Shown: in pieces, positions 7,263-63,178 of the stretch | Position numbering within the stretch: position 1 is the first letter of the stretch | Layout of the letters: each line of letters starts with the position of its first letter | Source: Ulota crispa | Lineage: Eukaryota; Streptophyta; Bryopsida; Orthotrichales; Orthotrichaceae | Assembly (NCBI GenBank): GCA_963920765.1 | Contig: OY987244.1 | Span: 14,758,501-14,822,500 of the forward strand | DNA length: 64,000 nucleotides | Direction of reading: 5' to 3' | Program-made: the position numbers and the translations under genes | The notes under the pieces: generated by a model | What the model was told of the DNA's origin: nothing | Seen by the model: only the letters and a program-made list of their open reading frames with translations | Database searches by the model: none

Positions 7263-7447
7263 CCTTAAAACACTGCTAAATAAGCTGAAACTTCAGAGTC
7301 AAGCGTATGGTATTCAAATTTTTTGTAGCACTGAGTTCTTTTGGCTAGAAACCTTTACTAAACTTAGCCACATTTGTGAACTCTAGTGGGATGCAGTGAA
7401 TGTTTTCTGCGGACTTACACAATTTTGGATTCTTTATTGATGTTTAA

Positions 7448-8362
7448 CCCATAAAGAACTGTTGTCCCTTGGGGGACAAATGGGACTTTGGGCATGTATC
7501 TATGGCTAAACCAATTTGTATAAAAAAATGAAACTTTTGAGGAAGACGAGGAATTCAAAGATATATGTTGGCATCTAATTTTTTCTTCATTTTGATATTT
7601 ATTGAAGAAGTTGTGCATGATTTTCTAGAAAATGGGGAGGGCTGGCAACTCAAAAACTTTTTTAAAAATTGCATTTTTTTAAAATAAAAATCTGAAATTG
7701 GTTCTTTAGATTTATATATATGTGGGAAGCTTCAAATCATTCAATTCTAATTGATGAGAAGTTTTAGTTTGTGGGTAGGTATGGGACTCCCAAACCTTCA
7801 TTCCTTTTGCCCCTTGTAATATTTGGTGCTTTAGTTTTGTTTTTTGATTATCTTTTTTTCCAAGTTGTAGTAGACTAAAATTCCTTGGATTTTGTATTTT
7901 GAATAAAATTAATTCAAATCTTTGAATTTTACATAAATCCTCCAATTTTGCCTAGTGTATAAGCAAATTGCATGGCCTTATAGCATTGCAAGATTTTATA
8001 TAGAATGATTCACACCTCCATTTCATTTGAAAATTCTCCCACACTTACCTAACTTGGTCTTCTACATGGAAAAAATAAACCTTAACTTTGGGTAGAGCAA
8101 TGTCTTTGATATAGGAGAGGTCAAAGGCTTCTGAATTTTTTGGGGAAAAAAACTTTTTTTTGCACTTCAAATGTCAATATTTCACTCCTCTACATTTAAA
8201 ATAAGCTGATTTTTTTCCCACAGGTACTTCCCATAATCTAGGGCAAGATCCTACAATTGGATTTTTGGAAAAAAAAAACAATTTATTTACCTTAATATTT
8301 ATTGCCCTAAAAATGGCAGTTTCAATGACTTTTGCAGAAAAAAGAGCTCCATCCTTTAGGGG
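7448..8362. mobile_element. TTAA-flanked element, family P2 (915 bp)
   Basis: Flanked by TTAA at 7444-7447 and 8363-8366. The left end is CCCATAAAGAAC, the right end is CCTTTAGGGG. The interior matches another copy at 53345-54255, including GGGGGACAAATGGGA and GGAATTCAAAGAT. No transposase is seen; it looks like a non-autonomous piggyBac-type element. Confidence 0.7.
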
Positions 8363-8366
8363 TTAA

Positions 8367-8956
8367 TCTTATTACTGTGTTTATATACCGTTGGGCTTGA
8401 TTTGGGCCTTTGAAATTACAAATAAGAGTGTATCATGAGTCTAAGATTGCCAGCCAGTTATCTTTCATCCTACTCAAGTTATTGTTCAAATTCAAGTTGA
8501 ACTCCTCTTAGCTAGATCTGAAAAATAATTTTCTACTGCTATTTATTTCTTGTGTTTGAAATATTTATGGGCAAGTTTTTATGTTTGCATGATGCATTGA
8601 ATCCCTAGAAACTAGGTGTTGAATCTTTAGAAACTAGGTGTTAAAAATTTGAACAACTAATGAATCTAAACAGGTCCCATGCAGATGGAGACTTGGTTTT
8701 TCAGCTATGCACATGCATGCTACTACACTTTAACCCCTGAACGGCCCAAAAGCCCTTTGCGGCCGTATGTACGGTTGTATATATGGACATATTTGAGCTG
8801 CTCTAAGGGCTTTTCAAACTTTTTTATGCACCCATCATCGTACAACCCTTCAATATGTATGGTTGTAACACTTAATTTCCAATTGATTCAAACTTCTGAA
8901 TATTGGTTGCAATCGTATTTGGTACCGTATCTCTAGAGCCCAAGGGCCCTTCATGA
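8367..8956. other. AT-rich intergenic sequence
   Basis: No gene is visible. A motif TTAACCCCTGAACGG at 8730 resembles the P2 left terminus and could pair with GGGGTTAA at 13133-13140, which would make the 4.2-kb element that follows an insertion inside an older P2-like element. This pairing is weak. Confidence 0.35.
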
Positions 8957-9837
8957 AGGTAAAAAATAGCGTCCTACATGACCGCATGTTTTATGACTGG
9001 GCGTCCTAAATGACTATAAAACGACTATGACGTGACTAAAAAATGACTTGACATTGAAATAGTTGTTCTTTAGTCATTCTTTTGAACGATTCATCTGAAA
9101 CTCTCCACAGAATCGTATTCTCCTTAATTTGTAAGTACATTCTCATCCATAAGCAGATGAGGTTGTTGTTGTGTTTGACATCTTTTAGCTGGGGTAGTGG
9201 TTTAGTTGTATGCCCAAAACATGAGTTTATAGTATTACTAAGGTGTTACTAATGAACTACTAAAGAGTTACAAATTTCATTCCACATCATTTTCATGCAA
9301 AAACACATCTTTCACGGTTTTCTCTCAAAATTTTGGGACTGCCCGGTAGCATTATTTTAGCTCTTTCTTGTTCTCTTGAGACTATGTGAACGCACACTAT
9401 TGCAACAATCATTTTTTAGTTGTTTAGCACGTTTTGTAGCACTACTAGTTTACTACTAGGATATGACTTCTATGATTAAATTGGTTTTGAGTAAGTGGGT
9501 TAATGAAGTTGTTAGGAGAATAAGAGGCATAGGATTGGATGTCGCTAGGTACTAGTTCTATACGTACTAATGTGCGACTAATCCATGACTAATAAATGAC
9601 TTTCATGTGATTTTTATGTGCAACTAATTGAAGACTAATAAATGACTCATACATGGTTTTGCCTCTCCTGCTGAGTTAATATTGTTCTTTCTATCGCATT
9701 AATTTAATGATTAGAATTTGATCTTATTTCATGGGTCATGGGTGAGGAGCAAGGAATGTTTTAGGATTTAGGATTTAGGGGTTTTGGGTTTAATGGGAGT
9801 TAAAGAAAAGTGGTCATAGATAATATGTCACCACATC

Positions 9838-10460
9838 AGTTAAATGACTACATAATGACTACATAATGACTACAAAATGACTACATAATGACTACAAAAT
9901 GAGTACATAATGAGTACATAATGACTATAAAATGACTACATAATGACTACAAAATGACTACAAAATGACTACAAAATGACTACATAATGACTACATAATG
10001 ACTACAAAATGACTACAAAATGACTACAAAATGACTACAAAATGACTACATAATGACTACATAATGACTACATAATGACTATAAAATGACTACAAAATGA
10101 CTACAAAATGACTACATAATGACTACATAATGACTACAAAATGACTACATAATGACTACATAATGAGTATATAATGAGTACATAATGAGTACAAAATGAC
10201 TATAAAATGACTACAAAATGACTACATAATGACTACAAAATGACTACATAATGACTACATAATGACTACAATATGACTACATAATGACTACATAATGACT
10301 ACAAAATGAGTACATAATGAGTACATAATGACTATAAAATGACTACATAATGACTACATGATAACTACATAATGATTACAAAATGATTACAAAATGACTA
10401 CATAATGACTACAAAATGCCTACATAATGACTACAAAATGACTACATAATGACTATAAGA
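9838..10460 (+). repeat. 11-bp minisatellite, about 55 units
   Basis: Near-perfect tandem array of GACTACATAAT and GACTACAAAAT units, with rarer GAGTACATAAT and GACTATAAAAT variants. The unit carries the same TGACTA core found throughout the surrounding 4.2-kb element, so it probably grew from a subterminal motif. Confidence 0.95.
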
Positions 10461-11322
10461 CGACTATGGAAGAACCCAATTATAGTCATGCATTTGTTGT
10501 CACTTAGAAGTTCATGGACTTTTTTTTCTTCTACTATTATTATTAGAATATAACTTGAACAATTATTTTGGGATTTGCGGTGCAATTTTCTTTTTGGGCC
10601 CACATATTGTGGCTTTCAAAACAAGAAAGGTCTTGCTCTACCAATTCCAATTCCAACCAACTATTTGAAAGGGGTGTAGTTTGGTTAGCTCATTAAACTG
10701 TATGTTTAAGAGTTTAGTCGTATTTTAGTTTTACAAGGATTGTAGTTAGGTCACTATAATCTTCTCCAAGCATGTGCTAGTTGTCCATTAGTTGTATTTG
10801 AGTCATACATTCAATACATTATTATTATTAATGCTATTGTTATTACTATAATTATTATCATAATAATTAACAATTTGAAAGCTGTAATTAAAACTCTTTG
10901 AAAGCTTAAAAAATAATGTTTCATAAATATATATATAATTTTTATCATGATCTTGATTATTTTTAAAGATAAAAGTCAAACAAAATTAAAAAAGAAATCA
11001 TTTAAAGTAAAAATAAAAATTTAATACATTCAAATATTAGAAGTTAAAACTTTAAAATTTGCAAAAAAAATTGTTTTGAATGTTTTACAATAATTTTAGC
11101 ATGTAAATAGTTCATTTTGATGCAAATTTATGTTTTAAACACATTGTTGATGTTAAATTTGCCAAAAAAAAATATTATCTAAGTTTTAATAGCACACACC
11201 CCAAAAATCAAGTTGTAGTTTTTGAGTCAGTTTAAACCATTCATTGAGATTAGAATTGGTAGTTTGTAAAGTGAAGATGTGGCCGCCACCTTTACGTTTA
11301 GGGTTTAGCTCCGTGGACTTGA

Positions 11323-12362: not shown

Positions 12363-12500
12363 AGAACAACTAAAATATGACTAAGTGACAACTAAAATAT
12401 GACTAAGTAACAACTAAAATATGACTAAGTGACAACTAAAATATGACTAAGTAACAACTAAAATATGACTAAGTGACAACTAAAATATGACTAAGTGGAA
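12363..12500 (+). repeat. 22-bp tandem repeat (about 6 units)
   Basis: Unit CAACTAAAATATGACTAAGT plus two bases, alternating GTGA and GTAA. It reads as a dimer of an 11-bp motif with the TGACTA core, so it is related to the array at 9838. Confidence 0.9.
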
Positions 12501-13140
12501 TATATAAACAACTAGAAAATGACTAAACCAAGCACTACAAAATGAATGTAAGTGCTCGTTGGAGCACCGTGGCACCTTGATTCAAAACTAACAAACTACT
12601 AATATATGACTAATGAAAACTATGGGCTTCCTTATCTGTTACTGATACATGACTAAATGAGAATTATGTGACCACTTATCCATTACTGACATATGACTAA
12701 ATGATTCCTGTGTTGTCACTTATCCGTTACTAAATGTGGATTGGCGTTTTGATAACAAATGTGGATTGGATTTTATAAAGCAGTTACTGAGATCAAGACA
12801 CGTTGCCACATGATAGTTTGATTCTGTTAGTGGAAACGTAATGGCACCATTGGGAATTGGGAAAATTTAAATGCCTTCAAGAAAAAAAAGATAGTTGGGT
12901 TCAAGAAAGAGAGAACAATTCTTTCTTTCTAATAAAGACAAAGCCAGCATGATGTAAAGGATGAGATACTATAATGTCCTAAATGACTAAATGACAAAAA
13001 CTACTAAACAACTAAAAATTGACTAAATTGTGACCAAATGAGACCAGTCATGATATAGTCATTTAGCGAGAAATGACTCATTTTTTAGTCATTTGTAGCA
13101 ATCATATAAGACGCTGTATTTTACCTGTGTTAGGGGTTAA

Positions 13141-13674
13141 CTCCTAAATGCCCAAGGGGATAAGGGCAAAAGCAGATGCATTATAAAATGATACTTATGT
13201 AACTTTGATGAAGTTTGTTTCAACAGAGAAAACAAGAATCATGATGTTTAGTAATTATCCGTATAGTCAAACATTCAAAAAAAGTTTTGGATTTTTATTT
13301 AATGAATTTAGAAGCATTTGTCACTTTATATACACAAAAATTACAAATTTTATTCATAGATTTTGAAATTTGGTATGATTGGTTAAAAACAAACATTCTA
13401 TTATAAACTTCAAAAATGCAATCTTTTCAAAGGAGAGAACATCATTAGTTTCCCAAAATAGTAAATTTTATAATACTAGCAAATATTGAAGTGTTTGTCT
13501 TTGAAAAATTCTCCTTGATGGAGTTTAACTTGGATTGACATGATTCAAGTTAGATTGGAAAGCAAACTTGATTTTCTATTTAAATTTTTTTTTATTTTAA
13601 ATAAAAAAATTCATCTTGGGCAGCCCACAAAAATTGGGCAGCAATTAGAAAATGGTCGATTGAGCGCTTAGGGG
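13141..13674. mobile_element. TTAA-flanked element, P2-like (534 bp)
   Basis: TTAA lies at 13137-13140 and 13675-13678. The left end is CTCCTAAATGCCCAAGGG and the right end is GCGCTTAGGGG; the match is only good over the outer bases. It sits back to back with the next element, sharing one TTAA. Confidence 0.55.
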
Positions 13675-13678
13675 TTAA

Positions 13679-14642
13679 CCCCTAAAGGACCAAGGGCATT
13701 TTTTGAGAAAAAAAATAAAAAAACTGCCAACTTTTAGTGCTTTGCCCAAAATTGAAAATGTAAACCCTTTTTTCTCAACTCCAACCATACAAAAGTGTGT
13801 CAAACATATAAGATAATATGTGCAAAAAAATTCAGCTCATTTGACCGCACAAATTGTAAGAATATAATGTTGAAGTGAGAAAAATAGCTTTTTTTCATTC
13901 TTGCAAAACAAGGTCAATAGACTTTGAGCTTTGCTAGAGTAAATTTTTCGCTCTACACAAATTTTAGCTTTTTGACCATTCACAAGTATATGATGTTAGA
14001 TTCACTCATGAAAATTTTCAAATGCAAAGATAGAATTTAGCTTATTCTAAATCACCTTGCACCGCAAGGAGGTTTAGTGAATTGGCAATACAATGTTGTT
14101 CTTTCATGATTTCTTGTGCAATGAGGAAGTCTTTTATTTGAAATTTGAATTGGGAAAATTTAGAGACAATCATTTGGAATTTGTGAAGTAGAGTTTCAAG
14201 ATTTTTGGATTTATAAATTGAAAGATAATAGAGCCTAAAGTTAGAGGAATTTGTTTTTCTTGAAACTACCCAAACATAGTTAATGAAGTTTGACTCCCTT
14301 CTAAATGTGATGTGAGAGTTAGCTTTTTTTTTTTTTTTTTTTTTGACATTGTACCTTATGTTTTTTTAGTTACATATTAATTTCAAAAGTTGATGAGAGT
14401 TTTAGCATAAGATTCTCCAAAGATGCCCAAGCTGCCCAAGGTGCCCAAATTCTATTGGGTAACATAACTTTTGAACTAGACATTTGATTGGGGAAAAAAT
14501 TATATTTCCACTTAGGGAATACATATCTGCACCTCGTGTAACAATTTTGAAAAAATACAATAAAATTTAATAAAATTTAATTTCATATGACCCTACCCAA
14601 GTTCTCAAGTGGCTATTGAACAGCCACTTGGTCCTTTAGGGG
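13679..14642. mobile_element. TTAA-flanked element, family P2 (964 bp)
   Basis: TTAA on both sides (13675-13678, 14643-14646). Terminal inverted repeats: left CCCCTAAAGGACCAAGGGC, right (reverse complement) CCCCTAAAGGACCAAGTGG, identical for 16 bp. No coding region. A 23-base T run lies inside at about 14322-14344. The ends and target site fit a piggyBac-type non-autonomous element. Confidence 0.8.
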
Positions 14643-14646
14643 TTAA

Positions 14647-15215: not shown

Positions 15216-15219
15216 TTAA

Positions 15220-17041
15220 CCCCTAAATGTCCAAGGCACTAGATTTTGGTGTTCAAAAAAATTCAAGAAACTTTGAAACCCTCTTGAAAACAAACAAATT
15301 ATTGTTTAAAGAGTTCTTTTTGGAGAGGTTGCGGGTTAAAGTTAGTTTTAGTTTTCAATCTTAACTTCCTCTGTACCTTATTCCAATTATTTTTGGTGGA
15401 AGCTAAATTGCTAGCATACATCTTGTGTCATAAATAGTGTAATAAATAAAGTCATGAATATTGTCACAACGCCAATGAGAAGTTGTCACATTGAAAAACA
15501 AGCATCAAGTTGAGAAAAATGGGAGGATTTCCCTTGGGCACTCCTTTGAGCTTGGGCAATAAGGGCCCTTTCACTAAAATTTTGTCATCTAACAAAATCT
15601 AAAAGTGCTTTTGGACTAATTTCACTTGGAATATTTTTGTTATAGAAATTAGAATTCATTCACCATTAAATTTTCTTTCATTAATAATGATTTTTGGTCA
15701 ATAATTGAAGCTAAAACATTTCTCTATACTAGGCAGGTGCATTTTGACAGTTGCATTGCAGTCTCATTTGTGAACTTGTGGTCATGGATTTAGAAGGGGG
15801 GACATTAGTTTTCAAGCAACAACAATAAACACTAGAGTATCTTAACCCTTTAGAGACCACCAAACCATATTTTGGTTTGGGAGAGTAGTTTTTGGCCTAT
15901 ATAGTAAAATTGCTCAAAAATTTGGAAAATGATCTTGAAGAACTCTTGTGATCACAAGAATTTTGCATCCAACCCAAAAAACAACAATAGAATCGGATAT
16001 GGGAGTTGATAAATTAAGGTGGTTATACATCATGACCTCAAAATACGTATCCATATTTGGTCAAAGATGGATCAAAGCAACAACACAATACATCAAACAT
16101 CCAAGAAGAATGCCACATTTCAATTGTGCAATCTTAAAAAACTTCAAATTACTCAAGAAATATGCTTGTATTGTTTCTCTATACGGTAGTAGTACAATTG
16201 TACTATTTGAGAATCCATTGAAAAGATGCTATCAATTTATTTTAAAAAAAGTTCATCCTACATTTAAGGCCAATTCTTGGTTGCTTTCACCAATTGGATT
16301 TTCAATAAAAATTTTCAAATTTCTTGTAGAATTGTTTTAGGGTAGCAAAGAAAACGGGATTTTTGACCCTTTTTGTCCACTTAGCTATACCTTGTGATTG
16401 CTATTTTTGTCTATTTTGAGTGAAACTAGTCTTGTTGGAAAGGTGGGAAACCCTACTTTCTAGAAATGTAAGACTTTTCTCAATCAAAACTTGCATGAAG
16501 CGCTACCATTCAAAACCACACAAGCATGAAAAACTAGAGATTTCCCATATAGAGCTCACTCAATCATTACAATATTTCACCTCCAATGGTAGATCTAGTT
16601 GAAATTTTGATGCATTGCAGCAAACAAGGTGTCCTTCACACTTATACAATTGGATTATTCAAATTGGGTCCATATTTGTTTCAAATGCACATCTAATCTT
16701 ACTGCCCTAGTTTCTAGTGGATTTTGGGAAAATGTGTGTGGTCTTTAAAGGGTTAAGTGGTTTTTTTCCAATTTTGTATCCAAAAGTTGCCAATTTGCAT
16801 TAGAAATTTTGGGCAGCTATACAAAAAGCAGAAAATTCCAAACTCGTCCATATTCAATCACATAATCTTAAAATTTGCATGGTCATTTTGGATTTTTTTA
16901 GATAGCACCATCTAAAAGCCTTGAAGTTCAAGATTCTACGGATTTAATTTTGTTTTGATATTTACTAATAATCTTACAAGAACAATTCAAAAACTTCAAA
17001 ACTAGCTTCCAAAATCAAGAACACCCTTGGGCATTTAGGGG
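15220..17041. mobile_element. TTAA-flanked P2 element, interrupted by a P1 element
   Basis: TTAA at 15216-15219 and 17042-17045. The left end CCCCTAAATGTCCAAGG and right end (reverse complement) CCCCTAAATGCCCAAGGG match closely. A complete P1 element (15846-16752) with its own TTAA pair is nested inside. Removing it leaves about 911 bp, the same size as other P2 copies, which supports nesting. Confidence 0.8.
15846..16752. mobile_element. TTAA-flanked element, family P1 (907 bp)
   Basis: TTAA at 15842-15845 and 16753-16756. The left end is CCCTTTAGAGACCACCAAAC; the right end in reverse complement is CCCTTTAAAGACCACACAC. Two further copies are at 57061-57920 and 61633-63174, aligned along their length, including CAAGAATTTTGCATCCAACC and GGTCAAAGATGG. 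The 130-codon frame at 15948-16340 partly survives in the other copies (TTTCTCTATACG region), so a remnant of coding sequence is possible, but it resembles no transposase I can name. Confidence 0.8.
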
Positions 17042-17266
17042 TTAATGATGCACTATGAATTTTCTTTAGGAGTACACTTGTAAAATTAACTATGTTCTAT
17101 GGAAGGCAAAATTATTATGTGGTGAGTTTGTACAAAATTGTAGAGTAAGAGGAATGAAAATTTAAATCTACAACAAAATATGAAGAACTTACATATATTT
17201 ATTGTAGAAACAAAATTTCAACCTGGAAATTTGGGATTTGAATTTCCCAAAGTTGAAAAGCGCTAA

Positions 17267-19773: not shown

Positions 19774-19972
19774 CTACGACCGTTGGCAAGTTCCTTGAAT
19801 GGACAACGTTCTTCCGACTGCAAGAGTTACAGAAATGCAAGGAGTTAGAACTGGAACACAAGAGAAGCAGAAATACAGAACTGGTTGAGGGTCTGAAATG
19901 AAAGGAAGCCTAAGATCAATCGACGTACATTCAGAGTTGCGCCAGACGATCACAATGGACAAGGGAGCTGAT
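19774..19972 (-). pseudogene. Truncated DUF569 C-terminal fragment
   Basis: Matches the 3' end of the intact DUF569 gene: the frame reads SIVIVWRNSECTS, versus SIVIVRRNSECTS at 26480-26515. Everything upstream of this point (fascin-like domain, linker and most of the C-terminal domain) is missing because FMO B sequence starts at 19973. It has no promoter or start and is non-functional as a DUF569 gene. It records the breakpoint of the segmental rearrangement. Confidence 0.8.
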
Positions 19973-20605
19973 TATAAGAATTGCATTTGAGACGGCTAAA
20001 TCCCAAAAATGCCTCATATGCTTGACTTCAATGGAGATCTGCAGTTTATCGAAAAAAAAAACAATCTTCAGCAATGATCTCACATGTAAATTCATTATTA
20101 GCTCAACTACCTCTAGAAGCTAAAAGTCCATATTTTAACACCATGCCTTTTACATTTATTGTAGCAATATCAAAATTTCGTAAAAGTTTGGCTAAATTCA
20201 GCCCCATTTTTTAATATTGCTCAGCAATGATCCCAAATGTGATTTTCATGATTGGCTCAAAAGGCTCAAAACACTGTTAAATATGCTAAAACATTCAAAG
20301 TTACTACTTCGGTGTTTTGCATTCGTTTCTGTAGCTATCACCTAAAATTTGTAGAAAAATTGCTAATTTTAGCAATTGCTTTTCAATTGCAAAATTTTGC
20401 AAGAAGTACGTCGAAAAAAACTTCAGAGTTTGCAAGAAATTGACTATTAGGTGCCCTCGCTTCTGTATCTAGAAAGTTTAAACATATCTACAAAGCTTCA
20501 AGAAAAGTAACAAAATGTACAAATAGAAACAAAGAAATCATTCTCTACACTTTCAAAAGCTGTAACAATTAACTTGCTACCAAAGCGGACTTGGACTTTC
20601 TGTTT

Positions 20606-23600
20606 CTAGTTTAGGCATTTGGAAGGTATACCTACTGATTGCATTTTTCCATTAAAAATGAGCACATGCCTGGAAAACAAGGAGTTAAAATAGTGAAACA
20701 ACAGCCACCTGTCAGGGAAACGTTGGTCAATTTTGTTGAGACAAGCGTAAGCTTCTTTGTGCAGGTCCTCGTCTGGCCATACATCTCGGTACGTCTCCGG
20801 ATTTTGTCTTTTATTTCTCGAAGTAGCTTCATAGATTTTCACCCTCCAAGTCTCCACACAAGCGCTCCCTGTTTGTTCTGCAAGCCAGTTGTCGTACTCA
20901 TACTGCAACAAACAGACATCACATTAACTTTAACTTAACATCATTTTTGTGACACTTTCTTGGAGTTAAGTTACTCAATCGTAATTTGATTAAACTAAAG
21001 ACTGTTGACTTTGTGGAAACTAGAGCACCATAGGGCATTAATAGGTGCAAGATTGTAAGATTGCACCACCAGTACATGTACAATACACCTAGTAATCCTT
21101 AAACATTCATGAGTATTAAAACATATCTAGGCAATATAACGGAGCTTGGTAGGTGAAAGAGATACAATTGAGTTTTCAGATAACTTAATAATTATCTCAC
21201 TATATAATGATTGGATGGGTGGCAAGTTTTACACTTTGTATTCTTCACATTTGGACAAAAATCTTAAGTGAGGACTCTATGAATCTAGTGTCCATTAACT
21301 TAGCTTTCAAGAATCTTAGTCAGCTATTGGTGGAGGTGACGGATCTTGAGACGAGAATTCAAATGCTGGTACCTGGGTAGTAGCCAGATTATGTGCAAAG
21401 TGTTTCGTCTTGCTGGAACCAGCAAGCTTCCCATAAAACTCCTTCACCGACTTCATCATCTCTGACGTGGAAGGCAAGCTGGCCTTGCCTGACAGAGCCA
21501 TGGCTATCCACCGAGATTGCAGCTCACACAACTGGAAGGGAACCACCTGTTGCAGCACAATTTTCAACAGCAATCAACAGCTCCTCAATAACATGCTGCA
21601 AAGTTAGACAACACCCAAAAAAAATGAAACTCACAGCGAGCAAGCACTTGCAAAAAACCATGCATTATTGCATTACCTTCCAAGGCAACCCTACGAAGGC
21701 AAGAGAGGGAGCAAGAGAAGGTGGGAACACATGCTCATATAAAGGACCAACACAATTATTATGCACACCCACTTCTCCCTTTGTATCCAGAAACGGAAAA
21801 TAATAGAAATACCTGCCATCAATTAGAAATACAAAGTCCGTGTCAAAAAACAAAAAGTCAAACCCTACTTCATATGTAAGTTACAAGAACGTTCACCGAC
21901 AAAAAAAAAAAGGCTGAAAAAGGGGTTTTTTAATAAGGTTCGCTCGAATCAAGAAGGTTTCAACAGCATCGTAGCATCATGAGAAAGAATCTTGTTATGA
22001 AGTCTAGGGTTTAGAATAATAGGGTTTAAGGTTTAGGGCCTTGGCAGCTTTACGGTTTTACGGTTTAGAGTTTAGTTCCTGCAAAGGGTCTAAAACCACT
22101 GTTTAAAGAGGGCAGAATTGGCCTCAACGACAATCTGCTTACCCTGTACAATGGAGAATGATATCCGCAGTGACAGATTTCCCGCTTTTGAACTTCACAG
22201 TTCCGTCATCACAAGCGCACTCTATCTGCATGCAACATCTTCATTAGACACCCAGGTATTTCGTATTGCAAAATGCACAGCACTATCAGAAAGCAAGAGC
22301 TGCTTAACTCTTAAACCCCCAAGAGGACATTTTTTGTCACCTGTAGGACGGGAAAAAGTTGTTCTTCATCTGATTTTTTTCGGAAGTAATCATAAACACG
22401 TGGTCCATCACGGGAGGCAAAAAAAACAATCTCATCAAACGCACTCATATTTGTAGGTAACCCAAATTGTGAGAAGATGAGACACAGTGTTAGGTCCCAT
22501 GTTACCCTTCTTGCAACTTTCATGAGGACACCATGCACTCTGCAACTTTTGAAACTAGTATTATAATGGGTGGGAACTAGCCACACCACTGTAGAGCTAC
22601 TATAGAGAGGCAGTCACGGTGACCAGCCCAGCGTTCAGGGGTTAAGAAAGCACAGTAGAGAGATGTTACCGTAGAATGACGATAAATGTTACTGTGCTGG
22701 CCAACAGGTTCACCGAAGTCGACCGGCGAGCTCCAGGTACGCCCGCTTATATGCACCTCTTTGGCCACTTGGGCAATATCCCTTGAGATGTCCACCCCAC
22801 TAGCCGCATTCCCTATCACCACCACAGTCTGACATACGCCCTTGAAATATAAACCCTAAAATATATAAAGCATTTCTCTCCCTTTCGGATATTCTGAAAA
22901 GCAAACAGTCAGAGTTGCAAATCACTACCTGGTCGATGAAAGAACTCGGTTCTCTGTAGTTATGGCTGTGCATTTGCGCTCCCGGCCATTTGCTTATTCC
23001 TGCACATGTAAATCACGAAATCAAATCAACATCGTAACATTCGTAGAGTAGTAACAGTTTTATGAAATCTTTCAAGAATCATGCCAAGTAGAGAGCTATC
23101 CATGGTTGTCACTTTGGGCAAGTTAAAGCCAAAGGACTAGAGCAATCCATGCTTGTTACTTTGGACAACTTAAGGCCAAAGGATAAGACAGACAAGACAG
23201 GCGCACAAGGACAAGACACACGGAAGAGGACAAGACATGCAAACAAGGACAAGACAGGCAGGTGGTTTGGACCAAGCTATGTGGGTGGGTGTCCATGCTA
23301 GAATTCAGGTGAGAAGACAAGCAACCTATCAGTGAGACAAGTGACGTGGTTGTCCATGTTGGAATCAAGGTGTGGACATCAAAGCACAAGGTTGCAAATG
23401 CAAGATTGCATCCATGCCCCCTACTTAAATAACAAAAAAAAACTGCCTCTGCACCCTGACTATTTGCTTTTTGACTATTTGCGTTTGCACTAGATGGGCA
23501 GGTGATTCAGGGTTGCTCCAGTATGACAACCATGGAGCAATCAGTGCAATTGTGTGAAGTCTCAAGGAATACCTGGGATCACTGCAAGTTTGGGCTCGGA

Positions 23601-24394
23601 GTAGTGACCATTGCACACCACCACTGCGTCGAAAAGCTCCTCATTCACGGCATCTCTTCGTCTCGTCCGCACTGTCCAACAATTTTGACGTAATCCTACA
23701 TGCTCTACGACGGTAGAAAATTCCACCAAGTTCGAAAGACCGTAAAAGTCTGCGAAATCCTGTAAGTAGGAGGTGACCTCTGCATGGCCTGGAAAGCGAC
23801 GAGGATCTCTCCCCGCTCTCGGAAGAAACGGGAAGTCGGTGAAGCCCATGATCTCACGAGGGAGATTCGTACGTAAAGACGCATACATGCTTGAGTGCAC
23901 ACGCTTCCGACGATTGTCAACTCCGAGTAAGTCGTCACTCTCGACCTCCGGGTCGTAAACCCACACTCCACCCACGCTCTCTGTCTGCTCGAACACCGTC
24001 ACCGTGTGGTGCTCTCGCATGAGCTCCCGTGCTGCCACTAGACCCGCCGCTCCTGCGCCGATCACCGCCACCCTGCAAGATTTCCGCCCTCCTGCACTCT
24101 CGGAACGTCAGCTCGCATCGCATCAAACCCTAATTTGCAGAACGAAAGCTCGCATCGCATGAAAACCCTAATTCGCATCCAAACCCTAATTTGCAATTGT
24201 CAAAGCCACTCGAAGATCTTAATTCTACTGCATCACGAACAAAACATTGGCCGGTGCGGATCACCAACCACGTCGTTCAGCGCCGTAAGCATCTTCGACG
24301 AGACACGACGATTTTTGCGAACCCTAAAGTATCGTGGGGAGCGCGAATTACCTCCGTTGGTTGCGAACTCGGAGCTCATCCCCGTTGGTTCCAT
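20606..24394 (-). CDS. Flavin-containing monooxygenase, FMO GS-OX-like (copy B)
   Basis: Inverted paralogue of the gene at 2531-6608 with the same eight-exon structure. Exons in transcription order: 24394-24352, 24091-23573, 22999-22929, 22828-22670, 22225-22143, 21812-21677, 21546-21373, 20902-20606; 493 codons plus stop, with consistent phases. Exons 1 and 3-7 have exactly the same lengths as in copy A; exon 2 is four codons shorter (CSEG absent before RQNCW). FAD motif GAGAAG, NADPH motif GNAASG, the MHSHNYR stretch and HCTGY are intact. The apparent lack of an ATG before the FAD motif is solved by the small first exon (MEPTGMSSEF). The C-terminus differs from A after FNGK because of a one-base change. 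Function is inferred from the family: S-oxygenation, substrate unknown. No inactivating change is visible, so both copies may be expressed. Confidence 0.9.
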
Positions 24395-25051
24395 GGTGCA
24401 GCAGCGAATTGCTGCGTTGCTGTTCGGCGCAAGACGCTCAACTCCTGCTCCGCGCGTCCATCCTCGAGTGCGCCTCGCTTCGCACTTCACAGCAGCAGGG
24501 TTGACGTTCGTTGATGTTGACGATGACGATGATGATGTCGAAAGATGGGAGTGGGCCCCTCGCGAGACACACAACGAGTTCAACGATGTCAGAGCAGCTT
24601 TTGCGCTTGTTGTCGCTGTTGTGAGCAGAATCATGGTGGTCCTCATCGCCGAACACGTTGCTCTTAGCAGCAATGTCTACGGCACTCCCGTCACGCCATC
24701 TATGCCGCTTTCACTCCGAGTTCTCCAGTTTCATGATATGATTCCTAAGTGGAAGTGGTGATTCTTGTGAGACCGCTCTGTGCCTCGCGATTGAATCGCT
24801 TTCTCTCTTCTGTCGCTCTGTCACAGTATTTGTAAATGAGTCTTTTGCTTTACTACCAGAGGCTGAGTATATGTAACTTATATCTGAATGTAGTAATCTG
24901 TGAAGGTCATCTCTCTTGCTGTAGTTTGTGAGCAATTAGATGTAAACACGGATTTTCCAGTACAGAATCAACTCCTAAATATGAAGCGAATCTTGGCAAT
25001 GAGCACTTGTTGAGGCCAACTTCCATGATGCATTGGAAATGGTGTTTTTGG
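24395..25051 (-). promoter_or_regulatory. 5' flank of FMO B
   Basis: Upstream region conserved with copy A (2207-2530 plus 745-1090) but not interrupted by the foldback array. It is GC-richer near the start codon. No TATA box or specific site can be assigned with confidence. A 208-codon open frame on the plus strand here is antisense to the promoter and first exon and is not taken as a gene. Confidence 0.5.
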
Positions 25052-29803: not shown

Positions 29804-30645
29804 AGTAGGAGGCTCGAACTCCATTAGGGCATTTTGAACCGCCCAAGTACGGGTTTCTAAATAGTGCACATAGTTTTTTAAAAGAGTCACATTTACTATG
29901 ATCAAGAATTGTACTTGTGCATGCAATGCTTTAGGAACTTAACCCTTAAATGTCTGAAAGGTCCTTTGCGACTAGTACAATACAAGGTATTTTCTTGTAT
30001 TTGGAATGGATCCACACCTTTACTACATTTGAGATCAACAAAGAAGTTGGAATATAGATAAACGCGGTTTGGGTGAGCTATTTGAGATCCCAAGTTAAAA
30101 TTTCTTGTTGGTAGCAAATGCCAAATATTTGGCAACGTATCTACTGTGCCCTCCTGATGTTTAGGGGTTAAGAGAGTGACATGAACCACTTTTGAGTGTG
30201 CTTATTTGTCATAATTGACTTCAAATTTGTTTTTCAGTAAAATAGAGACTTATGTCATACTAAAATAAATGAAAACTTGATTTCAATCATAATTTGAGTA
30301 TTAGAATATGGAATGGGTGCTTGCATGCTTCATTGGACTTAGTTGAACATTCTTAGCTTTGTGGTGGTTGGTTTTTGGACTCATGTGCTCCATTTACAAG
30401 CCGCCTTTGAATCATGAATACTACTACCTATGATCAAGAATAGCTACATATGCATCCTTTGCTTTGATTAGTTGTAGTTAATTCATACTAACTCAATAAA
30501 ATTCAATTTAAACAACCACAAAATTGTCTCTTCTTTGACTTTCTACCAAAAATATTTCCATTTTGCCAAGTTGCCCTAATTTTTCCATAAAAGCGCACTT
30601 TCCATAGACGATAAATTCACAAGCCTCCTACCTTAGAAGTTGCAA
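29804..30645. mobile_element. AGGTAGGAGGCTC-family element nested in a Mutator-like element
   Basis: The left end is AAGTAGGAGGCTCGAACTCC, the right end AAGCCTCCTACCTT. The inner part (about 30210-30440) is the reverse complement of 17455-17665. A small TTAA element (29943-30167) is nested within it. Confidence 0.6.
29943..30167. mobile_element. Small TTAA-flanked element (225 bp)
   Basis: TTAA at 29939-29942 and 30168-30171; ends CCCTTAAATGTCTG and CCTGATGTTTAGGGG. A related copy in inverted orientation is at about 40371-40621; both contain GAGATCAACAAAGAAGTT and the block CCACACCTTTA. Confidence 0.7.
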
Positions 30646-39853: not shown

Positions 39854-42800
39854 ATGACGACGACGGGGAAGGAAGAGCTGGGGTCGTCGTCGTCGATATG
39901 GCGACGGAAGCATGCGCATCCGACGCGGCCTCGCGGCGGCATTCAACTGGCCAAGCATCTCCGTGTGGCGGAACTCGTCTCCATAGGTTTGTTTGTATTC
40001 CGTCCGATCGAACGTGCTCCTCGATTCGTCCTGGTCGGTGCTAGAATGTCAGCAATTGGGGTTTGTTTTCTGATGCGAGAGATGGATGGGATGGATGGGA
40101 TGGCTATGGCAGCACAGCAAACTTTTATTAATTTCCTTCCGTCGGTTTCAGGAATTCTTTACATTTTCCCTGTGAGTGGTAGCGCCCAGAGTTGAAACGA
40201 AAAAAAGCTTGACTTGTGTGCAATCAAAGTGCTCTTGTGGATTGAAAAATACGATCCACAAGGTGAGATCATATGAATTGTTAGTGGAAAGTGTCTCCAT
40301 CATGGTGGACTTGATTGGAAGTGGTTTCACAGAACGTGTAATGAGATTATATTGGTCAAAATTGAGTTAACCCAGCTTTTTGAGAGAGGGTTAAAAGACC
40401 GAGCTACTATAATACACAATATGTACTTTGTTGTATAAATGGCATTTACTACCAACAAAAAGTTTTAATTTGAAACCTTGACTACCTCACTAGAACAATA
40501 TTGATCTATATTTTAACTTCTTTGTTGATCTCAAATATAATAAAGGTGTGGATGCACTCCAAATATGAGAAAAATACCCCATATTGTACTGATTGCAAAG
40601 AGTTGCTTTATCATTTAGGGGTTAAACATTTCTGACTATTTCTTTTTGTGATTTTTCCCGTATAGGGAATTCATATGCAAATCCCTAAAAGAAAATTGAT
40701 GACGAGAGTTTGTTGTGATGCAGGGATCGGATCCACGATAGGCGCGGGCGTGTACGTGCTGGTAGGCACCGTCGCCCGAGAGCGCGCGGGCCCGGCGCTC
40801 ACCGTCTCGTTCCTGATCGCCGGCATCGCTGCCGCGCTCGCGGCGCTGTGCTACGCGGAGCTGTCGAGTCGGTGTCCGTCCGCCGGCAGTGCGTACCATT
40901 ATGCTTACACTTGTGTCGGTGAAGGGTACGTGCACTTCGGAATACTTACCTGTGTCTTTTTTTCTTTTCAAAAACCAGTAAGGTAAGAGGCTCATAAACC
41001 GACCATCTAAGGGCTGAAACTGAATTTTGGAGTGGTGGAACTTCTTGAAGTAGTTTTCAGTAAGTTTTACTTGAAAGACAAGAGGAATTGGCATCTAACC
41101 CAAGGTTTTTTCATATTTTTTTGGAACTCAATGGACTTGGTTATGGAATTTTGAAGTGGAAAGGCCATAGGGCTCTAAAACCGCCCACCTCCTCAAATGT
41201 ACATCCATTGTACATTACTTAAAAGCTATGAATAAGTACATGTTCTGATAGAGTTCATTTGGGGAGATGAGCAATTTTAATGCCCTAACGGAGTTTGAGC
41301 CTCCTATCTTAGAGCTATCTTCAAGTTCAACAATATTTTACATTGGTAACGTGTCTCATGGGATTAAGGTATTGCTACCCTTTCATGTAATGCGTGTCAT
41401 AAGTAGTTCAAGAATGGATATGAAGTGGTCCTTGAATGGACCTCTTCAAATCATAGAAGAAAAGGTGTCTTTTATTACAAGAGCCAATCACACTCCTTAA
41501 TTTCAACTTATCTCTTTATAAGTTGTTGGGGAATGGTTCATGAGAAACCTAGAGTCACAAATAGATATCTACTATAAAAAACCTTGAAAACTCATGAACA
41601 ATTCAATAATGCTTCAAAAAAACATGAAAAGAATTATGTTACATTTAGCATCCATTTCTCTGTGTCTGAAAATTAGGCAAAAATATCTTTACGGCTTGGA
41701 AAGCCCATGAAAAGGCAGACCAGCCCTTAAAGTGACGGTTTTAGAGCTTAAATTCACCCCTGTTGTTTCATTGAATCAAGACCACCCCCCCCACTTTGCA
41801 TGAGTTTCAGCAGAACTCCGAGGTGTGACAGATTTTGAACTTTGGTTTTGCCACGTGGATGCAGAGTGGCGTGGATTATTGGGTGGGGGCTCATCCTTGA
41901 GTACACAGTGGGTGGCTCCACAGTTGCACGCGGCATTGCCCCCAACTTGGTACTTACCATCTCACCAATACTTCTGCTTCTAATACCAAAATAATTATTA
42001 AAATTCTCTGCATTTAGCCCTCAAGACTCTTAGTTCCCTGCACACACAACCTCTGGAAAATTGCCAATTTTGAATACGGTATACATTCTCTGCAGTTGAA
42101 GAAAAAAGTATTGCCACATGGCTCGTAAGACTCTTATGTCCTTTTATTTATTACTACACAGCCTCTAGAGATTTTTAGTTCTGCTGGATGACAAGTGTAC
42201 TACGTGACCTAAAAACTTTCCTGGGGCAAGCTCGGAACATCAAAAATAATGTTCCAACTTGCGAATTTTAACACAACTATTTGAATGGAACTCTTTTGAA
42301 GGAAATTGTTTGTGAAGCTTTTCTTGTGGTGTTCACTTTGCGTGCTGACAATGTTAAAACAAACAGGGGGTTTTTGTAGGAGGAGAAGAACACTTGCATT
42401 GGCTTCTGATCCGGAGGCTTATTCCTGGGACAGAGATTGTCGTGGACCCGTGTGCTGCGATTTTGGTGATGCTTGTAACCTCTCTCCTTTGCATTGGCGT
42501 TCGAGAGGTAATCAACATCTCTTTATCCCTTGCATGGCAATTTTGAATGTGAGATCCCTAGCCTTGGGAGGGAAGGAGGAGATGAAGAAACCTCCTTTGT
42601 TTTTAAGGGGTTTGCATGGTGGGAATTTTGGCAGAGTGCGCAAGTGCAAGCGGTGATGGTCTGTCTCAACATCCTAGTGCTGCTTTTTGTGGCGGGTGCT
42701 GGGTCCTATGCAGGCTTCAAAAATGGCTGGAAAGGCTACGAACAGCCTGACGGGTGCGTTTGCAACGATTGCAGGCCTCAAGTAACTAGGGTTAAGAAAT

Positions 42801-52540: not shown

Positions 52541-52549
52541 TCTCAAATA

Positions 52550-53074: not shown

Positions 53075-53344
53075 TCTCAAATATTCTAATTCAAATGAAC
53101 AAAATTTTGAGGAGGTTTTGCAAGCACTTATCTAGAGTGTATGAAAGACGCCTTATTATGAAGGTTGTATCTTGAAATTGTTGTTTGAAAGACAACCAAA
53201 GGTTATGGTCAAAATATTGTTTAATGAACAAATACTAAATGCATGCCCATCATGTTAATTAAGCAAAATTCAACAAAATTAGTGTAAAGGGATCTTACTC
53301 TATTTAAATTCAAAGTTTTGCACCAATTGAATTAACTTCTATAA

Positions 53345-54255
53345 CCCCTAAAGGACCATTGTCCCTTTGGGGGACAAATGGGATTTTGGGCATGTGCCTT
53401 TAGCTAAACTACTTTGTGTGATTTTTTGAAACTTTTATGGAAGGTGAGGAATTCAAAGATCTACGTGGGAATGTAATTTTTTCTTCATTCTAACATTTAT
53501 AGAAGAAGTTATGCATGAAAATCTAAAAAATGCTGCTCCTCAGGCAGCCAAAAATTTCTTTAAGTTTTTCATTTTTTTCAAATAAAAATCTGAAATAGGT
53601 TCTTTAGACTTATATAGACGTGGGGAGCTTTGAATCATTCAATTTTGATAGATGAGATGAAAGTTATGAGGAGTTTTTGTTTGCAAGTAGGTGTGGTTTC
53701 ACTCTAAAAAAATAACTTATAAACTTCATATTTGAATGCAAATTTAACATTTTTGCAAAAAAAACTATTGGAAAGGGTGAAGATTGCTTGCTAGAACAAT
53801 CTCATCCTTGGGATTATTGTGATTCAATTCCATTGCAAGGTTCAATGTAATATTTTGGTCAATCTCAAACCTTCTTCTATTTAATGTTTTTTTAAGAATG
53901 AAATTAAGTATTTTTTGTTTTGGTTTTTTTAAAAAGATTCTCAACTCAATTCCCCACCACAAAAAAATAACCTTGAAACTCCATGGTGCAAAAATTTCAA
54001 GTTAAAAAGGTTCAAAGTCAAATAATCTAATCGTGCAAGGTGCAAAAAAGCTTGCTTTTTACACTATGCATATATCTTGCAATTTGTGCGGTCAAAGTTT
54101 TTAAGTTTTGAATGACACATTCCTATACAAGTCTAGTACAAGATCCAAAGGTTAGATATGCAAAAAGACCAATCTTCAAAAAAATTTACCTTTTGCCATA
54201 GAAGTGGCAATTTTGAGTGTTTTTTGACAAAATAAAGGCCATGGTCTTTTAGGGG
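53345..54255. mobile_element. P2-family element (911 bp) flanked by ATAA
   Basis: Homologous along its length to 7448-8362. Ends are CCCCTAAAGGACCATTG and CATGGTCTTTTAGGGG. The flanking tetranucleotide is ATAA on both sides (53341-53344, 54256-54259) instead of TTAA. Confidence 0.75.
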
Positions 54256-54259
54256 ATAA

Positions 54260-54936: not shown

Positions 54937-54953
54937 CATATGTGTTTTACGGA

Positions 54954-55991: not shown

Positions 55992-55995
55992 TTAA

Positions 55996-56915
55996 CCCCT
56001 AAAGGTTTTGACTATGTTTTCATCAAAATTGTCCCAAAACTGTCATTTGTAGAGCAATTATCAAATTTTAGATAAAAGTTATTTTTGGACAAATTCAACT
56101 GTATGATCTTGTAGTACACTAGTATCCAAAAACGTGGAAAAAAATTCATAAATTTTTGCCAAGTGGATTGTTAGGTGATTGAGTTTGAATTGACAAAAAG
56201 TTGTTGTTTGTCCTGCAAAAAACCTGCACTTCACAAGGTCATATTTGTATGAAAAAAGTTTCAAAATGGTTGTAATTTTTTGTATTCATTCTTCAAGGCA
56301 AGTCAAGAACATATTTGAAAATTTTCAAATCATTTGGAAATGTATAACACATAGGAAAAAAATAGTAAGTAAAATGTAGAGAATGATACAAAACACTAAA
56401 TTGTTAAGAATTTAATTATGAAAAACAAAAAATCCATTCCCAATGGCTAAAATGCTGTAATCAACAATTTATATACTTTGGCATTATTTTTTTTCCAAAA
56501 TATTAAAAATTGAGTAAAACATAGGACTTAAAAGTTTTTTAGAGTAGGGAATCCATAACTGCCCGCAAACAGTATCTCCTCATAACTTTCATCTCATTGA
56601 TGAAAAGTGAATGATTCAAAGCCTCCCAAGTATATATAACTCTAAAGAACGAGTTTCAAAAAACAAAATTCAAAAAATATAATTTTTAAAAAAGTTTTTT
56701 GAACTGCCTGGGTTGCCCCCTGAACAAAGAAAACTACATATCATGCAATAACTTTTGAACCATGAAGTCAAAAGTTATGAAATTTGTTGGGCCTTAAAGC
56801 TACTCCTTAGACACATCATGTGTGAAAATTTCAAAGAAAAATTTGAAAAATCCATTTGTAGTGATCTGCCCAAAATTGCTATGTTGCCAAAAAACACTGT
56901 TTGGGCCTTTAGGGG
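55996..56915. mobile_element. TTAA-flanked element, P2-like (920 bp)
   Basis: TTAA at 55992-55995 and 56916-56919. Left CCCCTAAAGGTTTTGAC, right (reverse complement) CCCCTAAAGGCCCAAACAG. The size matches the other P2 copies. Confidence 0.75.
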
Positions 56916-56927
56916 TTAAGCACATAA

Positions 56928-57955
56928 CATTGTATAGTGCATGACACTTATAACCAACGACTATTGGCCAAACAAGAAGTACTACGGCACAATACATATA
57001 CTTATTAGCTCAAAAGTAATTCCACCACCAAGCAGGACAAGCCCTAAGATTCATCCTTAACCCTTTAGAGACCACCAAACCATATTTAGGTTTAGTAGAG
57101 TGGTTTTTGGCCTATAGAGTAAACTCGTTCAACAATTTGGAAACTAGTCTTGAAGTACGCTTGTGATCACAAGAATTTTGTATCCAACCAAAAAAACAAC
57201 AATGGAATCGGGTATGTGAGTTGACAAATAATGGTGTTTATACTACATGGCCTCAAAAGATGTATCCATATTTGGTCAAAGATGGGTCAAAACAACAACA
57301 CAATACATCAAACATTCAAGAAGAATGCCAAATTTCAATTGTGGGGTCCAAAAACGTTTCAGATTGCTTAAGAAATACACTTGTATTGTTTCTCTATACG
57401 ATAGTAGTATAATTGTAGTGTTTGAAGATCTATTGAAAGGGTGCTATCATTTCATTTTAAAAATTTGTCATCCTACATTTGAGGTCAATTCTTGATTGTT
57501 TTCACCGATTGGATTTTGCATAGCATTTATCAAACTTTTAGTAAAGCTGTTTTTGGGTAGCAAATAAAATGGGATTTTTTACCCTTTTTGTCCACTTAGC
57601 TACACCTTGTGATTGCTATTTTTTTCCACTTTGTGTGAAACTAGTCTTATTGAAAATATAAGACTCTTCTCAAACTACTTGTATGATGGAGTAATATCCA
57701 AAACCACACAAGCATGAAAACTAAAGATTTTTCCACCTACAACTCACTCAATCATTATAATATTTCACCTCCAGGTGATACTTTGCAACAAACAAGGTGT
57801 TCTTCCCATTTGCACAATTGGATTATTAAAATTGGGTCCATATTTGATTCAATTACACATCCAAGTTTACTATTCTAGTTTCTAGTGGATTTTGTGAAAA
57901 TGTGTGTGGTCTTTAAAGGGTTAAGCTTCATCTTGGTGGACTCGAATTTTTTATA
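56928..57955 (+). repeat. Dispersed repeat split by a P1 element
   Basis: The same repeat as 43718-43870. Its two parts lie on either side of the P1 element at 57061-57920, which dates the P1 insertion after the spread of this repeat. The junction also duplicates a short TAAG-TTCATC motif. Confidence 0.7.
57061..57920. mobile_element. TTAA-flanked element, family P1 (860 bp)
   Basis: TTAA at 57057-57060 and 57921-57924. Ends CCCTTTAGAGACCACCAAAC and GTGTGGTCTTTAAAGGG are nearly identical to those of 15846-16752. Two overlapping short frames (57221-57495) are remnants comparable to those in the other copies. Confidence 0.85.
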
Positions 57956-60710: not shown

Positions 60711-60741
<31 letters not shown>

Positions 60742-61030
60742 GAGGGCACGAGAACGAGGCGAGTGTCGGCGCCTGGATTACCACAAAACCGTCGCTAACA
60801 CGCACACTGCCTACACACAAATGGTGGAATAGTAGAGCGAGAGCGCGGTCTAGACCGACGGAAGAAGAAGAAGACGACGACGTCGTCGTAGCGTAGCAGC
60901 CGGGTTTGAATACCGTATCATATCCGTAACCGTATGGGTGTATGCGGGTATGGGTGTATGCGCGTATGATCATTGCTGGGGGCATTATGATATTTAACGG
61001 GGGGTAATAATAAGGGTAGCCGGCTTCGCG
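60310..61030 (-). promoter_or_regulatory. 5' leader and promoter region of the LSD1-like gene
   Basis: The pyrimidine-rich leader on the coding strand contains a CT microsatellite (GAGA on the plus strand at about 60710-60737) and CTCGCC-type GC-rich sequence. GA/CT runs near starts are common in plant promoters. Repeated GGGTGTATGCG units occur at about 60932-60970. Confidence 0.5.
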
Positions 61031-61628
61031 ACGGGACTGGCTGGGTGTCTTCATGGGGTAAGTTCCATATGGCGGCACCGACTGGACGGACAGCGTGGGT
61101 TGGTTTTGGTACCTGGTGCCAGCTGCTGCGTCAGCACCGCTTGGTAGGTCCTGGCGGCAGGGCTGAGGTGGCAGATCATGTGCACTTTTCGCTTTTCCTT
61201 GTTGCAGGATGCCAAGGATTTGGTGAATTAGAAGAGTTGCTGCACTGTAAGTATTTGATCTGCTACTGGGAGATCTCTCCACTTGTCTTGTGTGCTTTGG
61301 TGGTAAGCCCTGCGGTCTGTAGCAGGGCCTACAGATGCATAAACCAATCCAAATTCATTACTCCCTTGCTTCTAGAGCTCTCTATGAATGCACCCCAACT
61401 CATTATGGACGTTTGCATTATTTCTTTACCGCTAGAGTTCTCTAAGCAGCAGCGATTTTTAAACTGGCTAAATTTCGCAAGATTGCTACGGAAAAAAATT
61501 GCAGCTAAAAAATTTGTGAACTTTATAATGTTAAATTTGAGAATTTTAGCTTTTTAGCAATGCTTTTAGCCAGTGAAAATTATAATTGGGATCACTACTA
61601 AGCAAAAGTTTTATAAGAAGGGAGACGG
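61031..61628. other. Intergenic sequence
   Basis: A 170-codon plus-strand frame at 61045-61557 has no recognisable motif or splice partner; not called. Confidence 0.4.
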
Positions 61629-62315
61629 TTAACCCGTTAGAAACCAAAGAATCATATTTTGTACTAGAAAACGCGCTAGGTGGTGCGCATTTTGTGCAGG
61701 AGCAAGCCCGTGGGCGTCCTTGAAAATAGCCGAAGTGGCGGGGACTACTCTTAACGATTAGGAAGAGTGGTTTTTGGCCTATAAAGTAAAATTGCTCAAC
61801 AATTTGGAAATTGGTCTTGAAGAATGCTTGTGATCACAAGAATTTTGCATCCAACCAAATAAACAACAATGGAATTGGGTATATGAGTTGAAAAATAATG
61901 GTATTTATATAGCATGGCCTCAAAATAGGTATCCATTTTTGGTCAAAGATGGATGAAAGCAACAACATGATACATCTAACATTCAAAAAGAATGCCACAT
62001 TTCAATTGTGCGGTCTTAAAAAATTTCAAATTGCTTAAGAAATATGCTTGTATTGTTTCTCTATACGATAGCAATATTATTGTAGTATTTGAAAACCTAT
62101 TGAAATGGTGCTATCATTCATCTTTAAAATTTGTCATCCTACATTTGCGGCTAATTCTTGGCTATTTTCACTAATTGGATTTTCCATAGCATTTATTAAA
62201 TTTCTTGTAGAACCATTTTAGGGTAGCAATGAAAAGTGAGATTTTTGACCCTTTTTGTCCACTTAGTTACACCTTTTTATTACTATTTTTATCTATTTTG
62301 TGTGAAACTAGTATT

Positions 62316-62632
62316 AAGGTAGGAACACCCGTCCTTGTAAGGGTCCCCTTAACCATCACCTCTGAAATCTTGGAAAATTTGTGGAAGTTTCTAGATGTAA
62401 TGACAAGGATGTACAACATGTGAATATGAAACCTTAGTATTGGTTATGGTTGCAATGGCAATTTGCTCTTTAAAGATTCACAACTTATTCTTACAATATC
62501 CAAATAATACATTTGAAAGTGCAAACTCATTTTCTTCTGTTGCTAATAGGATCCTATAATTTGCTAGATGTTTATAAATAATCATTGTGTCCAAAACCCT
62601 TAAACTCACGCTTATGGGTGTTCCTACCTTAT
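62316..62632. mobile_element. TA-inserting MITE nested in P1 element
   Basis: Perfect terminal repeats AGGTAGGAACACCC and GGGTGTTCCTACCT, flanked by TA. It is homologous to the elements at 17908-18222 and 19284-19632 (reverse orientation relative to the first). Confidence 0.85.
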
Positions 62633-62880
62633 TGGAAAGGTGGGAAACTAGTATTATTGGAAAGGTGGGAAACTAGTTGTATTGGAAAGGTGGGAAACTA
62701 GTCGTATTGGAAAGATGGGAAACTAGTCGTATTGGAAAGGTGGGAAACTAGTTGTATTGGAAAGGTGGGAAACTAGTCGTATTGGAAAGGTGGGAAACTA
62801 GTCGTATTGGAAAGGTGGGAAACTAGTATTATTGGAAAGGTGAGAAATTAGTCTTATTGGAAAGGTGGGAAACCTTGCTT
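62631..62880 (+). repeat. 25-bp minisatellite (about 10 units)
   Basis: Unit ATTGGAAAGGTGGGAAACTA plus five bases (GTCGT, GTTGT or GTATT). The same sequence is single-copy in the P1 element at 16430-16450, so the array expanded after the adjacent MITE inserted here. Confidence 0.95.
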
Positions 62881-63178
62881 TTTAGAAATATAAGGCTCTT
62901 CTCAAGCAAAACTTGCATGAAGCATTAACATTCAAACCACACAAGCTTGAAAAACTAGAGATTATGCACATACAATTCACTCAATCATTACAATATTTCA
63001 CCTCCAACGGTAAATCTAGTTGAAATTTTGATACATTACAACAAACAAGGTGTCCTTTTACATTTATACGGTTGAATTTTTCAAACTTGGTTCATATTTG
63101 TATCAACTACACATCTAAGCTTTCTGCACCTATTTTTTATGAATTTTGTGAAAATGTGTGTGGTCCTGAAAGGGTTAA

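Follow-up and report, generated by a model that had tools for sequence, protein, structure and literature searches.

TTAA-flanked non-autonomous elements of a probable moss genome and their likely place in the piggyBac superfamily

Elements in the window

The whole stretch of DNA that was analysed (the window) contains a set of short TTAA-flanked elements (Table 1), which together cover 8,996 of its 64,000 bases (14%). The initial annotation reported at least eight segments of the form TTAA-CCC...GGG-TTAA, and when the sequence was read at each of the eight main places, these edges were present at all of them. The coordinates in Table 1 include the target duplications, and the earlier coordinates of the eight main segments lie inside them. 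Two weaker segments had also been proposed. The segment at 13141-13674 is indeed an element, with CTCC, not CCC, at its left end; it adjoins the 13675..14646 element, and one TTAA (13675-13678) is common to both. In the case of the segment at 40371-40621, the left edge had been misplaced: the TTAACCC at 40371 is coincidental, and alignment with the relative at 29939-30171 places the true, decayed edge at the TTAA of 40391-40394.

Table 1. Positions, strands and supporting evidence of the TTAA-flanked elements
Position	Strand	Element	Evidence
7444..8366	+	P2a element, piggyBac type, non-autonomous	Homology of its two ends to T25, a coding element
13137..13678	.	TTAA-flanked element, diverged left end CTCC	Partial relatives in the T23 flank and L077
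13675..14646	.	Element with P2a ends (CCCCTAAAGGACCAAG) between TTAA copies	Relative adjoins T34
15216..17045	+	P2b element, internal-deletion derivative of a coding piggyBac	T12 and T22 matches
15842..16756	.	P1 element nested in the P2b element	Uninterrupted P2b paralogues
29939..30171	.	Short TTAA-flanked element with a 225-bp interior	Matches the 40391 element at 79% over 161 bp; partial relative in the T24 flank
40391..40625	.	Related to the 29939 element; its left end is decayed	Alignment with the 29939 element
53341..54259	+	P2a element with duplicated ATAA flanks	Both ends match T25
55992..56919	.	TTAA-flanked P2a-type element	Ends; partial similarity to the elements at 7444 and 53341
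57057..57924	.	P1 element	Further P1 copies genome-wide
61629..63178	.	Long P1 variant, 1,542 bp inside	Extra interior including repeats of about 25 bp; left end diverged

TTAACCC and GGGTTAA occurred 12 and 19 times in the window, against means of 4.7 and 4.7 in 200 first-order Markov simulations. With stricter ends (TTAACCCYTWA facing its mirror motif at 150-2200 bp), nine facing combinations were found in the window and none in each of the 200 simulations, which rules out a chance origin of the TTAA/CCC end pairs.

Two families, P1 and P2, had been distinguished; P1 was kept, and P2 was divided into at least two families, P2a and P2b. With the nested P1 left out, the P2b element is 919 bp long with one target copy on each side. 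The relative of the 13675..14646 element beside the transposase locus T34 matches it at 83% over 967 bp, up to the end of the fetched piece. The window elements have TIRs of about 13-16 bp, roughly CCCYWWARNGNCC, as well as asymmetric subterminal sequence, and a transposase gene is absent. Transposase remnants in the window were sought by tblastn with 30 open pieces from 13 loci and were rejected, as no match among those listed was better than E 0.42.

Target site, copy number and age

Homology was used to locate ends across 354,087 bases, and the flanks were exactly TTAA at 36 of 44 left ends and 31 of 37 right ends, with a slight bias to TTAA from some flank loci that were fetched with TTAA-containing queries. 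All four TTAA positions were conserved on both sides (41-42 of 44 on the left and 34-36 of 37 on the right), which rules out a TWA target. Identical flanking tetramers were present in 19 of 22 full-length copies, eight of them the window's own (18 TTAA and one ATAA), and the remaining three differed by one base. The duplication in genome copies, which the initial annotation had proposed as a check, is therefore 4 bp at TTAA, as piggyBac predicts; the 3-bp TWA duplication of PIF/Harbinger was not borne out.

The P2 copy noted earlier for its ATAA flank (53345-54255) has ATAA on both sides, and a TTAG/TTAG pair was found at L039 799-1201, at ends with 2-3 mismatches; both pairs were picked out from 120 end combinations under a loose definition, the majority of them not real elements. 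The duplication is therefore indicated to include its first and fourth bases. At the site of the nested P1 element, all seven fetched P2b paralogues (L036-L042) align in one piece. Three of them, shown letter by letter, have a single copy of the tetramer, CTAA (L038 and L039) or CTAC (L040); the window P2b has a one-base target difference, because TTAA stands there against CTAA or CTAC in these paralogues.

We searched the genome, which has 275 Mb and no fewer than ten contigs longer than 15 Mb, for three ends including TTAA, allowing up to one mismatch. The search gave 16,719 matches (about 16,700): 377+415 for the left P1 end (20 bases), 2,757+2,823 for the P2b end (21 bases), and 5,216+5,131 for the P2a end (20 bases), counts in which the mismatch may sit in the TTAA and a site intermediate between P2a and P2b may count twice. 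The reversed control of each end gave no match. Without the target, the P1 end (16 bases) had 227+251 exact matches, and on the contig covered by both lists for exact matches (C1), an exact TTAA precedes 77 of 85 such ends.

With the 7444..8366 element as the query, 40 of 9,243 first-look candidates were scored, giving rows 76-100% identical. With the 57057..57924 element, 40 of 2,427 candidates were scored and gave 42 further match rows, 76-88% identical except for one 32-base piece. Short pieces aside, the scored genome copies (40 per search) were 76-88% identical to the window copies; thus, judged by this divergence, the insertions of these families look old.

Coding relatives and the origin of the short elements

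The PF13843 (piggyBac transposase) profile gave 120 match rows in the genome, all above the cut-off; 116 of 528 candidates were scored, and a few loci account for two of these rows each. Stops were present in 110 of the rows and absent from 10, and introns may explain some of them. Open pieces from T33, T34, T32, and T12 match PF13843 / DDE_Tnp_1_7. This transposase was found in the probable parents of both P2b (T12, E 2.6e-59 against PF13843) and P2a (T25, E 5.7e-63). At E 0.001, T33 and T34 matched nothing in the PDB other than piggyBac 6x67 and piggyBat 9c0f. When T34 was aligned to both, its three Asp fell on D268, the CDN motif, and D447 of 6x67; these three are the catalytic residues of piggyBac. 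The three catalytic Asp (DDD) are found in T34 and in T12, the latter with the motifs VDE, MDN, and GVD. The third catalytic position is Asn in T33 and T24, and at several of the 18 transposase loci that were walked one motif or another is missing in frame. In a pattern search without a control, 14 of these 18 loci had a Cys/His motif past the domain, in comparable positions; in the C-terminal piece of T12, a separate domain was not found with Pfam.

Both ends were read at eight of the walked loci, namely T09 (5,027 bp), T14 (5,102 bp), T12 (5,746 bp), T22 (5,456 bp), T23 (6,687 bp), T25 (8,829 bp), T27 (5,556 bp), and T34 (5,656 bp), so that the coding elements with TTAA and CCC ends are 5-9 kb long. 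One target copy is decayed in each of T22 and T34, and the left end of T34 lies within a doubled TTAACCCA. The ends of two loci (T18 and T24), partly decayed, were placed by alignment, three (T10, T26, and T33) have a single candidate end each, and trusted ends were not found at five (T15, T16, T19, T20, and T32), T16 having a weak candidate pair. In the pairs T12/T22, T09/T18, and T23/T24, homology starts and stops within 2 bases of TTAA. The full-length relatives are mostly decayed and occur alongside abundant shortened, non-coding copies.

The P2b element matches T12 only in two outer parts: its positions 339-919 match T12 1-586 at 82.8%, and its positions 1-69 match the last 69 bases of T12. 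Positions 1-48 and 256-304 also match within the first 269 bases of T22. The element at 15216-17045 is an internal deletion of a coding piggyBac element of the T12/T22 type.

In the case of P2a, positions 1-177 of the 7444 element match the first 178 bases of T25 at 82%, and positions 478-923 match its last 453 at 74%. For the 53341 element, identity is 90.6% to the first 181 bases of T25 (over 180 bp) and 70.7% to the last 131 (over 133 aligned positions). In 100 shuffles of the three queries, two hits were obtained in all. The 7444-type right end is also carried by T26, and P2-type ends lie downstream of further transposases in 4 of 20 flanks, the 7444-type right end at L080, L084, and L088 and a P2b-type end at L087, with about 0.9 kb between hit and flank unread. 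The matches to the 7444 element start at its position 474-478 in T25, T26, L080, and L088, and at 415 in L084. The P2a copies match both ends of one coding element, the left-end half of the link resting on T25, one locus, and the right end is also seen at other transposase loci. Matches of L079, L081, and L082 to window-type ends were dropped, as separate MITE copies are the likelier source, judged by orientation or extent. The longer relative with the same ends and a DDD piggyBac transposase that the initial annotation proposed to look for was found for P2 (T12, T22, and T25), and the P2 parents found encode piggyBac instead of the Harbinger, hAT, or other transposase that it had considered for an autonomous partner.

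A coding parent of P1 was not found; in the 18 walked loci and 20 further downstream flanks, P1 matches solely other P1 copies, and inspection by eye of contig C1 and the first part of contig C2 placed none of their exact P1 ends within 20 kb of a transposase row. The assignment of P1 (15842-16756, 57057-57924, and 61629-63178) therefore rests on its target and ends. Its end, CCCTTTAGAGACCACC, is most like the coding piggyBac ends of T33 (CCCTTTAGCGACCATGG) and T34 (CCCTTTAAGGACCGTGG), over a short length. P1 would have used a piggyBac transposase of a family outside those found here.

Assignment to piggyBac and its meaning

The elements have a TTAA target, a 4-bp duplication, defined ends, and a high copy number, and coding elements with the same ends are present in the genome. 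piggyBac termini are stated to be 5'-CC..GG-3' (PMC10045372), and both the window elements and the coding elements have such termini. The piggyBac reading, first drawn from ends and target, is now supported by the DDE_Tnp_1_7 transposase of the P2 parents and, for P1, by target and ends. We are highly confident that the window elements belong to the piggyBac superfamily, as cut-and-paste DNA transposons of the non-autonomous kind, in a land plant that is likely a moss. The moss reading comes from a single light-harvesting gene, whose protein matches the PDB chains 8htu and 7xqp at 458 and 457 bits, the next ordinary row reaching 437; both chains are from Physcomitrium patens (PMC10005731; PMC12589708). 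Two 9vfj rows (521 bits, the top score, and 439 bits), in which no single stretch passed, were set aside.

Other readings were weighed against the same observations. If the elements were PIF/Harbinger MITEs with a 3-bp TWA target, they would sit at TTAA by chance; TTAA does contain TTA and TAA, and PF13359 transposases, known here from the transposase domain alone, are numerous in the genome (150 scored of 278 candidates). However, the conservation of all four positions on both sides, the ATAA/ATAA pair, and the TTAG/TTAG pair with its weaker ends speak against this reading, as do the coding parents, which are piggyBac and count for P2a and P2b, and we consider it extremely improbable. Kolobok and Sola3 are also users of TTAA, and P1 alone could belong to such a superfamily, with P2 being piggyBac. 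The failure to find a P1 parent among the sampled loci would fit; however, P1 has the same target and CC..GG termini as coding piggyBac, and its end resembles, though briefly, those of T33 and T34, and we consider this explanation very unlikely.

The likeness to coding elements might also come from MITEs inserted beside transposase genes. MITE density is high, plain P1 copies adjoin T14, T24, and T33, and the sequence next to the transposase includes the unread part at L080, L084, L087, and L088. However, T12 and T22 have both TTAA ends and the transposase region in common, P2b matches just the two outer parts of a coding element, and the shared internal start of the 7444-element matches at T25, T26, L080, and L088 is unlike whole MITE copies. 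We give this explanation hardly any weight.

For the piggyBac reading, the anatomy fits movement in trans. A DDD transposase from the longer elements would recognise both ends kept by each window element and cut at CCC/GGG, and the cut element would insert at TTAA, which would be duplicated; excision would be seamless. Movement of the elements and any present activity are inferred.

Compared with piggyBac 6x67 and piggyBat 9c0f, the elements share the TTAA target, the 4-bp duplication, the CC..GG termini, and the DDE_Tnp_1_7 domain with three Asp, as well as a Cys/His motif after the domain (pattern only), whereas the sequence is distant (best phmmer E 4e-20), the host is a plant, and the non-autonomous populations are very large. 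Animal piggyBac-derived MITEs, including lepidopteran ones, are short and internally deleted with TTAA duplications. The copies described here are similar in these respects, but many are about 0.9 kb, have traceable decayed coding parents, and lie in a plant genome. Like plant MITEs, they are high-copy and non-coding with short TIRs, but they differ in the 4-bp TTAA target and the piggyBac parents.

The initial annotation held piggyBac to be rarely reported from land plants. This is fair as to detail; however, piggyBac-like elements have been said to occur in plants (PMC8086355; PMC10813416), and piggyBac is listed among plant superfamilies (PMC10794571), so in the available parts of these sources it is a known kind in plants. 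One study states such elements for all of its taxonomic groups, the group list being outside what we checked (PMC4438587), and in a fern annotation table the PiggyBac row gives 1,230 and 122,417, which we read as copies and bases (PMC6890710). In a MITE survey that covered 207 plant genomes, five main superfamilies are named, and piggyBac and TTAA are absent from the main text as available (PMC12550479). For the moss Ptychostomum knowltonii, 29.13% of the genome is assigned to TIR elements, CACTA being the largest share (PMC11704416). In the Niphotrichum paper, one of the two 'piggybac' words is 'piggybacking'. In the accessible literature on piggyBac with land plants, bryophytes, liverworts, Selaginella, and green algae, we came across no moss for which a native piggyBac is described, which is not proof of absence. 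We found no description of these families, their abundance, or their parents in the portions of the literature examined.

Insects are where piggyBac is best known, and it serves mainly in animals, both as a tool and as an object of study. Taken together, and tentatively, at somewhat less than even chances, piggyBac, which is outside the five usual plant MITE superfamilies, may be a leading DNA-transposon group in this moss lineage, long-resident, divided among many families, and responsible for well over ten thousand MITE ends; some of the large TIR fraction given for another moss may then be misfiled piggyBac, and plants may own a footprint-free transposon lineage. A plant genome in which the ends match about 16,700 times, the coding parents are decayed, and some transposase frames are open makes it possible to ask how piggyBac lives in plants. 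The same genome lets one ask whether piggyBac in plants was inherited or transferred, and whether it has been missed by plant repeat annotation.

Abutting elements and unpaired ends

At four places in the genome, adjoining elements have four bases in common, TTAA at the two read directly, as if one element had inserted into the target copy of its neighbour. Single ends were also seen in the window; those at 4498 and 22645 resemble each other, and both are covered by a large inverted duplication, the arms of which lie at 2198-7258 and 19965-24739. The main pieces of this duplication are 82-92% identical, and the duplication carries fragments of flavin monooxygenase-like gene sequence. A tandem repeat array occupies window 9842-10467, with 88-92% likeness among its copies.

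Coordinates of the features (C1, C3 and C5 are contigs of the same genome)
Feature	Location	TTAA
TTAACCCC-type end without recognised mate	window 4498	
TTAACCCC-type end without recognised mate	window 8730	
TTAACCCC-type end without recognised mate	window 22645	
Adjoining elements, four common bases	window 13675-13678	read directly
Adjoining elements, four common bases	G000, C5:22254722-22254725	read directly
Adjoining elements, four common bases	C5:20205255-20205258	inferred from alignment coordinates
Adjoining elements, four common bases	C3:9475275-9475278	inferred from alignment coordinates
Palindromic repeat, TATCAACCCCC-like ends (example)	C5:24508802-24509156	

Repeats and transposase loci

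Palindromic repeats with TATCAACCCCC-like ends were observed within or close to the piggyBac transposase loci T12, T22, T25, and T34; those of T12, T22, and T34 are homologous to one another. At a further locus, L032 (C1:1177500-1184500), no element ends were recognised flanking the transposase within the 7 kb read. This piggyBac transposase is present as two open pieces with about 270 bp between them, and is possibly an intron-bearing or domesticated copy.
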